From contig CP070701.1 of the NCBI GenBank assembly GCA_020349885.1, forward strand, positions 1,425,178 through 1,489,177: a stretch of DNA of 64,000 nucleotides, read 5' to 3'. The notes beneath the pieces were generated by a model, which was given only the letters and a program-made list of their open reading frames with translations, did not search any database and was not told the DNA's origin. Below are positions 16,898 through 20,324 of the stretch, piece by piece. Each line of letters begins with the position of its first letter. The first letter of the stretch is position 1. Source of the stretch: Acidobacteriota bacterium (GTDB lineage: Bacteria; Acidobacteriota; G020349885). Both the position numbers and the translations under genes were made by a program.

Positions 16898-17226
16898 GGC
16901 CCGCCGAGCCCTGCCGAAGTGTCCAGGGCAAGCATCAGGCGCCTCAGGAACGCCTGGATCAGAATCAAGATCAGCATCAGGATGAGCGGCCCCACGTCCA
17001 GAAACATCCCGCCGCGCCCGAGGGGCAGGAATTTCCGGAAGGGCTTTACCACGGGGTCCACCAGCCGGAAGAGCGTCCTCAGGACGTGGACGAACGGGGG
17101 GCGGTAGGCCTTGCGCACCAGGGGATTGTGGGGAAAATGGTCCGTCCACGACCAGAGCACGCGCACCAGGACGATGACGATGTAGAGCGAGACGAGGCGA
17201 TCGAGGACGTAAAGAATCCAGAGCAC
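16891..17226 (-). CDS. YggT family membrane protein
   Basis: 111 residues, two hydrophobic regions: an N-terminal helix in WILYVLDRLVSLYIVIVLVR and a C-terminal LILMLILILIQAFL. Between them is the YggT motif SWTDHFPHNPLV and LVDPVVKPFRKFLP, plus GGMFLDVGPLI. Family role is poorly understood; members are implicated in membrane or division-protein positioning and osmotic stress. First gene of the F0 operon here, with 7-nt overlap with atpZ. Divergent from selD, with a long GC-rich hairpin (17251-17290) in the shared upstream region. Confidence 0.8.
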   Translation of the reverse strand: MLWILYVLDRLVSLYIVIVLVRVLWSWTDHFPHNPLVRKAYRPPFVHVLRTLFRLVDPVVKPFRKFLPLGRGGMFLDVGPLILMLILILIQAFLRRLMLALDTSAGLGGPW

Positions 17227-17250
17227 GCCCCCATGTTACCCGCAGCGCCC

Positions 17251-17290
17251 CAAGGGCGGCAAGCCCCGACAGCGTCGGGGCAAGCCCTTG
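17251..17290. repeat. Two-tier GC-rich palindrome between yggT and selD
   Basis: Inner stem GCCCCGAC, loop AGC, GTCGGGGC (17263-17281); outer stem CAAGGGC (17251-17257) with GCCCTTG (17284-17290). It lies between two divergent genes, where a terminator has no obvious use. It may be a dispersed palindrome of the CCCCGA/TCGGGG family seen elsewhere in the window. Confidence 0.7.
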
Positions 17291-17324
17291 TTTTGCCCTC
17301 GGGGCTCTCCTATCCTATGGCGGT

Positions 17325-18383
17325 ATGGCACCGCGAAGCGTTCCGCTTACCTCCCTGAGCCGGGCCGCGGGTTGAGCGTCTAAGCTCCCGCCGGAGGCTC
17401 TGGCCGAGTTGTTGAAGAAGCTGCCGAAGGCCCGCGACAGGCGGGTCATGGTAGGGGTGTCTCTGCCGGACGACGCCGCCGTCTACCGCATCTCGAGGGA
17501 CACGGCGCTCGTGGCGTCGCTCGACTTCTTCACGCCCATCGTGGACGACCCCTACGCATACGGCGCCATCGCCGCCGCGAACGCCCTGAGCGACGTGTAC
17601 GCCATGGGCGCCGAGCCTCTCTTCGCGCTGAATATTCTGACGTTCCCGTGCGACGCGCTCCCGGAGCGCACGCTCACCGAGGTGCTGCGCGGCGGGGCCG
17701 AGAAGGCGCGCGAGGCGGGTGTCGCCGTCGTGGGGGGCCACAGCGTCCGCGACGCGGAGCCGAAGTACGGCCTCTGCGTCGTGGGCCGCGTGCATCCGGG
17801 GAAGCTGGTCACGGCGCGTGGCGCACGGCCGGGCGACGCGCTCGTCCTGACGAAGCCGCTCGGAACCGGCGTTCTCACGACGGCCATCAAGCAGGGCAGG
17901 GCGACGCGGGCGATGGTCCGGGACGTGACGCGCACGATGGTGGAGCTCAACCGCGGCGCCGCGCGCGCGATGGTGCGCGCCGGGGCCCGCGCTGCGACCG
18001 ACGTGACGGGCTTCGGCTTCCTCAACCACCTGCATACGATCCTGCTCTGCAGCAAGGCGGGCGCCGAGGTGTGGAGCGAGGAAATTCCGCTCCTTCGCGG
18101 CGCGCTTGAGCTCGCGCGCCGGGGCTGCGCCCCGGGCGGAAGCCTCAAAAACCTGCACCACGCCGCGAAGTTCACGCGCTTTGAGAAAGGGATTTCGAAG
18201 GAGGAGCGCCTCGTGCTCGCGGACGCCCAGACCTCGGGTGGTCTCCTTATCGCGGTATCGCAGCGCCGCAAGGCGCAGTTGCTGCGGGCGCTCCGGCGCG
18301 CGAAGACGCCCGCCGCGGCCGAGGTCGGGAAAATCGTCCGCTCGAAGAGGCCGCGCATCGAGGTGGTGCGGGCGGCGCCATGA
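17325..18383 (+). CDS. selD: Selenide, water dikinase SelD, a UGA-encoded selenoprotein
   Basis: Makes selenophosphate from selenide and ATP. The frame continues upstream of the TTG at 17409 through one in-frame TGA (17373-17375) to ATG 17325, giving 352 residues with selenocysteine at position 17. The N-terminus reads VPLTSLSRAAG-Sec-ASKLPPEAL, which fits the SelD catalytic motif AAG(C/U)A(A/S)K. Downstream: SLDFFTPIVDDPY, the DVYAMGAEPL core, VVGGHSVRD, DVTGFGF and QTSGGLL, all SelD signatures. Immediately after the UGA a short hairpin (AGCTCC, CGCC, GGAGGCT; 17383-17399) could be the SECIS. A conventional gene finder would start at 17409 and lose the active site. dsbD follows 42 nt later. 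Confidence 0.9.
17376..17402 (+). promoter_or_regulatory. Candidate bacterial SECIS hairpin in selD
   Basis: Directly after the in-frame UGA, AGCTCC (17383-17388) can pair with GGAGGCT (17393-17399; one bulged base) around a CGCC loop whose first base is about 14 nt past the UGA. Placement fits bacterial SECIS elements recognised by SelB; the fold was judged by eye. Confidence 0.45.
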
Positions 18384-18425
18384 GGAATACTTTCCCCCGC
18401 CCGCGCGTTTAAAGGACTTATGACG

Positions 18426-20324
18426 ATGAAACGCCGTATCTCGATAATCCTTCTGATGGTGCTGGCGCTCGGCGCGGCGGTGCAGGCGCAGCCCGTTGGA
18501 GGAAGACCCGCCGGAGGAAGGTTCCTCGACGAGGTGCCGATGGAGATGGAGCCCCTGTCGTTCGAGCTCGCGCCTGGCGGCGAGGCGCTTCTTTCCATCC
18601 GCTTCCTGCTTCCGCCCGGCGTGCACCTCAACTCCGTGCCCTTGCCGGAGGTCGGGTTTCCCGAAGCCGGGTGGCTCGAAGCGCCCAAGGCGGCCCTCGA
18701 GGGCCACAAGAGGTGGAGCAAGACGCTCGAGTCGGACGTCTACGGGGGCGACGTCGACATGGCGCAGCGGCTCATAGTCGCGGCGGACGCCCCAGAGGGC
18801 GCGCATGCGGTGAAAGTCGTTTTGGCCTACTTCCCCTGCGACGAGAAGGCCGGCGTCTGCTACCGCCTCGCGAAGGAATTTTCCCTTTCCGTCGAGGTGG
18901 CGGCGGGCGCGGCCCCGGCTCCGCCGGAGGGCGGCGGGGGCTTGGCGGCCCGCGTGGCGGCGGTGCTCGAGGGACGTGAAGAGATCCCGCTGCTTGCGCT
19001 TTTCGGCCTGGTGTTCCTGGGAGGGGTGCTCGCGAGCTTCACGCCGTGCGTCTACCCGATGATCCCCATCACGGTCGGCTTCTTCGGCGCGCGCGCGGGG
19101 CAGAGGCGCGCGAAGATTCTCCTGAGCATCGCCCTCTACATCCTGGGCATAGCGCTCGTCTACGCGGCGTTCGGCCTCGCGGCGGCGCTCGGCGGCAAGG
19201 CCTTCGGGTCGCTCACCCAGAACGCGCCGGTCCTCTTCGGCGTCGCGACGCTCCTGTTCGTGATGGGGCTAAGCCTGGTGGGGTTCTTCGACCTCGACTT
19301 CGCTTTCATGCGGGGCGTGCAGGCGAAGCCGCGCGAGGGCGTCCTCGGCGCGTTCGCCATGGGCGCCGTGGCGGGCCTCGTGGCGTCGCCGTGCGTGACG
19401 CCGATCCTGGTGGCGCTGCTGGCCTACGTGGCCACGCAGGCGAGTCCCGTGCTCGGCTTCTCGCTCCTCTTCGTTTTCGCCGTGGGCCTCGGGACTCTCC
19501 TGGGCGTGCTCGCGCTGTTTTCCTCGCTCACGGGCGCCATCCCGCGGAGCGGGGCCTGGATGGTGGGCGTCAAGGCGTTTCTCGGGGTAGTTCTGATGGG
19601 TGTTGCAGTGTATTACTACGGTAAAACAACCGAGATTCTGGGCCTGGAATTCTGGCCGGGCGGGGTGCTCGCCGCGGGCGTGGGGCTCGTCTTCCTGGGC
19701 TACGCGCTCGGGGGCCTCGTCTTCACGGCCGCCGGGACGCAGGGGGAAAGGTTCCGCCGCGCCGCGGGCCTCGTCCTCGTCGTCCTGGGCATTTCGCTCA
19801 CATTTCGGGGCGTCGGGGGCCTCGGCCCCTGGGCGGGCGCGGCTTCTTTCCGGGCGCCGGGCGAGGAAGAGGAGGCGCCGGGCGTCGCGTGGGAGAAGGA
19901 AGACCTCGACGCCGCCCTCGCGCTGGCCCGGGCGAGCGGGAAGCCCCTCGTCGTTGATTTCTGGGCCCCCTGGTGCGTCTACTGCCTCAAGATGGACAGG
20001 ACGACGTTCCGCGACGAGGACGTGGTGAATCTCGTCCACACGGCCTTCGTGCCCGTCAAGATCAACTACGACGAGATGCCCCGGGAGCTCGCCGCGGAGC
20101 TCGGGATCGCCGGCCTTCCCACGATTCTTTTCCTATCGCCCGACGGCGGGGAGCTCGAGCGCCTCACGGCCTACGTGGACGCCGAGGGATTTCTTCGCAT
20201 ACTGCGCGGCGTCCTCACGCGCTACGAGCCCCCTCAGAAAGAGGGCTTCGACTGGAGTGAGCCTTCCGGGGAGGAAGCCTCCCCGGGAGGAGAAATCGCC
20301 GACGCCGAGTGGGTGACGGAGTAG
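18426..20324 (+). CDS. dsbD: Thiol:disulfide interchange protein DsbD
   Basis: 632 residues; ATG 18426 has AAAGGA at better spacing than the ATG at 18420. Signal peptide, then a periplasmic alpha domain with the Cys pair in YFPCDEKAGVCYR; a membrane beta domain of about eight helices with the redox Cys in SFTPCVYPMIP (about residue 208) and ASPCVTPILV (about 323); and a C-terminal thioredoxin-like gamma domain with WAPWCVYC (about 517-520) and GLPTILFLSPDG. It carries electrons from cytoplasmic thioredoxin to periplasmic substrates. All six catalytic cysteines are present. An acidic tail follows the thioredoxin domain. Confidence 0.95.
   Translation: MKRRISIILLMVLALGAAVQAQPVGGRPAGGRFLDEVPMEMEPLSFELAPGGEALLSIRFLLPPGVHLNSVPLPEVGFPEAGWLEAPKAALEGHKRWSKTLESDVYGGDVDMAQRLIVAADAPEGAHAVKVVLAYFPCDEKAGVCYRLAKEFSLSVEVAAGAAPAPPEGGGGLAARVAAVLEGREEIPLLALFGLVFLGGVLASFTPCVYPMIPITVGFFGARAGQRRAKILLSIALYILGIALVYAAFGLAAALGGKAFGSLTQNAPVLFGVATLLFVMGLSLVGFFDLDFAFMRGVQAKPREGVLGAFAMGAVAGLVASPCVTPILVALLAYVATQASPVLGFSLLFVFAVGLGTLLGVLALFSSLTGAIPRSGAWMVGVKAFLGVVLMGVAVYYYGKTTEILGLEFWPGGVLAAGVGLVFLGYALGGLVFTAAGTQGERFRRAAGLVLVVLGISLTFRGVGGLGPWAGAASFRAPGEEEEAPGVAWEKEDLDAALALARASGKPLVVDFWAPWCVYCLKMDRTTFRDEDVVNLVHTAFVPVKINYDEMPRELAAELGIAGLPTILFLSPDGGELERLTAYVDAEGFLRILRGVLTRYEPPQKEGFDWSEPSGEEASPGGEIADAEWVTE

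Follow-up and report, generated by a model that had tools for sequence, protein, structure and literature searches.

Selenide, water dikinase (SelD, selenophosphate synthetase) ranks second in size among the known selenoprotein families of prokaryotes and is, with the formate dehydrogenase alpha subunit (FdhA), one of the two commonest selenocysteine (Sec) proteins. Two kinds of SelD are the closest described counterparts of the gene analyzed here, one with Sec and one with Cys at the catalytic position. In the tabulation of Sec families, SelD is listed with the motif UxxK, while UHxP is the known Sec motif of FdhA (PMC13188914). The Cys-containing form is exemplified by the solved structure PDB ID 3u0o, which has a Cys where the present protein has Sec and needs no recoding.

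The window, a stretch of 64,000 nucleotides, belongs to an Acidobacteriota genome of 2.4 Mb assembled as one contig (95% complete). The selD gene lies at 17325-18383 on the + strand and encodes, with TGA translated as U, a protein of 352 residues whose position 17 is Sec. A single frame runs from ATG 17325 and ends with the stop codon TGA 18381-18383, its sole interruption being TGA 17373-17375. It had been claimed in an earlier note on this DNA that the SelD frame continues upstream of 17409 through this TGA as far as ATG 17325, and both frame and translation bear this out. The table 11 ORF starts at TTG 17409 and is 324 amino acids long, as anticipated for a standard annotation, and lacks the active site. 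The N-terminal 28 codons missing under that start (17325-17408, + strand) encode MAPRSVPLTSLSRAAGUASKLPPEALAE. These residues had been proposed to be the SelD N-terminus with Sec in an AAG-U-ASK motif; with them included, the match to the SelD equivalog model TIGR00476 now reaches profile position 2.

The read-through product matches TIGR00476 over profile positions 2-310 with 368 bits (E-value 5e-110), the cut-off of this model being 125 bits, and it contains the AIRS and AIRS_C Pfam domains. Aligned with 3u0o from the first residue of each protein, it places the recoded position 17 (UGA 17373-17375, + strand) opposite Cys17 of the solved protein; a second structure, PDB ID 2yye, has a Cys in the same column. 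Residues 17-20, UASK, pair with the C-x-x-K of both structures: the catalytic Cys/Sec and the Lys of the N-terminal loop are thus present. With Cys-containing SelD the present protein shares family, length, and the number of the catalytic residue, 17. Its resemblance to Sec-containing SelD (TIGR00476; PMC13188914, UxxK) is more extensive: a complete SelD in which Sec occupies the catalytic position of the loop, the flanking AAG-U-xxK, a downstream hairpin as putative SECIS, and a host possessing selA, selB, and tRNA-Sec. There is no difference of note, as the Ser found here (UAS), where the Cys-x-Cys form has its second Cys, occurs likewise in many relatives. Given the size of the family, the gene is therefore one more ordinary member, of interest mainly for its annotation. 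It is a correct example of a well-known arrangement, common to most relatives checked: the annotation of one gene is corrected, as a start at TTG 17409 drops the catalytic residue, and existing knowledge of selenium use is unaffected.

A Sec-containing SelD implies a selenium machinery elsewhere in the genome, and all three components named in the earlier note are found on the same single contig. The selA gene is located at 597314-598663 (564 bits) and the tRNA-Sec gene, with anticodon UCA, at 731798-731893 (68 bits). SelB is encoded at about 1889.9-1891.8 kb by a 649-residue ORF that includes the C-terminal domain; it scores 318 bits, or 349 with the C-terminal piece. The absence of selB and tRNA-Sec, named beforehand as the observation that would speak against Sec, is thus contradicted by a SelB match of 318 bits and a tRNA-Sec of 68 bits. 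Besides SelD, the genome encodes a formate dehydrogenase alpha (TIGR01591, 845 bits) interrupted by one in-frame UGA, in the motif NCARTUHAP, with its molybdopterin domain at 347919-349190; with FdhA, the number of selenoprotein genes thus rises to at least two. To note, this formate dehydrogenase (L129:913-3576; about 347.3-350.0 kb of the genome) carries a NuoG-like ferredoxin region at its N-terminus.

Frame, homology, position of the UGA, machinery, and second selenoprotein gene point together to a selenocysteine-containing SelD, in which UGA 17373 is almost certainly decoded as Sec by the genome's own machinery, most likely guided by a hairpin. The ribosome would decode this UGA using the SelA, SelB, and tRNA-Sec of the genome, and the hairpin located just 3' of the codon most likely guides this step. 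Sec17 would then sit in the selenide-binding N-terminal loop, at the Cys position of other SelD proteins, and the enzyme, most likely acting like every other SelD, would convert selenide and ATP to selenophosphate with the participation of Sec17. Selenophosphate would in turn be used by SelA in the formation of Sec-tRNA, which would serve at least FdhA and SelD itself. Actual insertion of Sec, a SECIS function of the hairpin, and enzyme activity are inferred from the sequence. A further role of SelD in selenouridine synthesis was considered and dropped, since no TIGR03167 match, and hence no mnmH (SelU), was found in the genome.

The hairpin is the weakest part of this reading. The putative SECIS (17383-17410, + strand) was obtained by constrained folding (-12.6 kcal/mol) and comprises a 5-bp lower stem (17383-17387/17406-17410) and a 6-bp upper stem (17390-17395/17399-17404), capped by the apical loop GGC (17396-17398) 20 nt past the UGA. 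The claim of a hairpin at SECIS distance stands as far as the fold and its 20-nt spacing are concerned, but taken alone the hairpin is no better than chance recoding (10-22%), and a signal emerges only class-wide. Indeed, 48 of 500 synonymous recodings fold as well or better, and repeating the test with a different codon table gave p = 0.22. The plain fold of the stretch lies at the mean of dinucleotide shuffles (z = -0.08), and an Rfam scan of 17200-17700 returned no SECIS match, its single chance hit lying far below the gathering score. When the synonymous-recoding measure was applied to 47 UGA-SelD genes, 38% fell below p = 0.1 (combined p of 1e-8, the genes not being independent), as compared to 13% of 23 Cys-SelD genes (combined p of 0.15); the two groups differ with p = 0.008. 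The optimal loop of several relatives within the phylum is positioned either 17 or 20 nt past the UGA. The present gene exhibits the 20-nt register, and three pairs of the 17-nt register seen in several relatives are absent from it. One tentative and rather doubtful interpretation is that the SECIS hairpin of SelD exists in this phylum in two registers one codon apart, that lineages may have shifted the signal while keeping the protein, and that the gene described here would be one of the shifted forms.

The conservation of the UGA was assessed in a set of 149 genomes from the same phylum, 106 of which possess a SelD above the curated cut-off. Exactly one internal TGA is found in 82 SelD matches from 80 of the 149 genomes (hand count, own genome included). 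The position of the TGA was read directly in the fetched loci of about 20 of these roughly 80 genomes, and in all of these about 20 it occupies the Sec17 site. Across the fetched loci, which come from the same phylum and from named genomes, the codon at this site is TGA in 46 cases, TGC in 15, and TGT in nine; UGA and Cys codons thus occur at the same site among relatives, in agreement with the statement that SelD exists in Cys and Sec forms. The flanking A/G-G-U/C-x-x-K is kept around the site, and relatives devoid of the N-terminal motif, which had been put forward as a possible counter-argument, were not what the survey revealed: the motif is retained, with a UGA or a Cys codon in it. The SelD of one relative (L028) is very similar to those of two acidobacterial records (L099 and L100).

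These data bear directly on the possibility that the UGA is a true stop, or else a recent nonsense mutation or sequencing error in a Cys codon, the gene being either broken or started at TTG 17409. Automatic ORF calling does pick TTG 17409, TGA is one base away from TGC and TGT, and the hairpin is weak taken alone. Yet many relatives display UGA at the same site with the flanking motif kept, the genome has the full Sec machinery together with a second UGA-containing gene, and a start at 17409 would delete a conserved active-site loop; this reading is very improbable. Even less probable is a genome-wide reassignment of TGA (of the code 4 or 25 type) to an ordinary amino acid in SelD, for which nothing speaks beyond the open frame across the TGA: the SelD frame reaches TGA 18381 and stops there with the length expected of it, the two genes with an interruption among the named families examined, those for SelD and FdhA, encode the two commonest Sec proteins and are broken at their known Sec sites, and the tRNA with a UCA anticodon is tRNA-Sec.

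With Sec17 retained as the reading of UGA 17373, read-through of the second UGA, at 18381, into the next gene was also considered and rejected, as SelD has already its normal length there and 12 GC-rich codons lead to ATG 18420. That the frame past the stop is open over 18381-18420, into the ATG of a DsbD-like gene, is taken as chance. The DsbD-like protein (18420-20324 of the window), directly 3' of selD, has a C-terminal thioredoxin domain whose motif, CVYC, contains no UGA; the NCBIfam model that it matches best is that of the selenoprotein TsoB, far under the cut-off. The search for selenoproteins covered named families, the window, and stretches of 20 kb surrounding selA, selB, and tRNA-Sec; a crude motif scan of the window and these stretches revealed no further convincing selenoprotein.

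Two genomes of the phylum, G038 and G054, encode UGA-SelD, selA, and tRNA-Sec, with no SelB above the cut-off in either. Decoding without SelB was considered for them, and assembly gaps are probably the better explanation: a fragment resembling SelB is found where a contig of G038 ends, and G097, a genus-mate of G054 (itself rated 99% complete), has SelB. Finally, in three loci (L016, L017, and L020) a cysteine desulfurase domain is followed by SelD in one fusion with an active-site Cys, seen in full for L020 (746 amino acids). The three source genomes (G012, G068, and G089) also carry a separate UGA-SelD.
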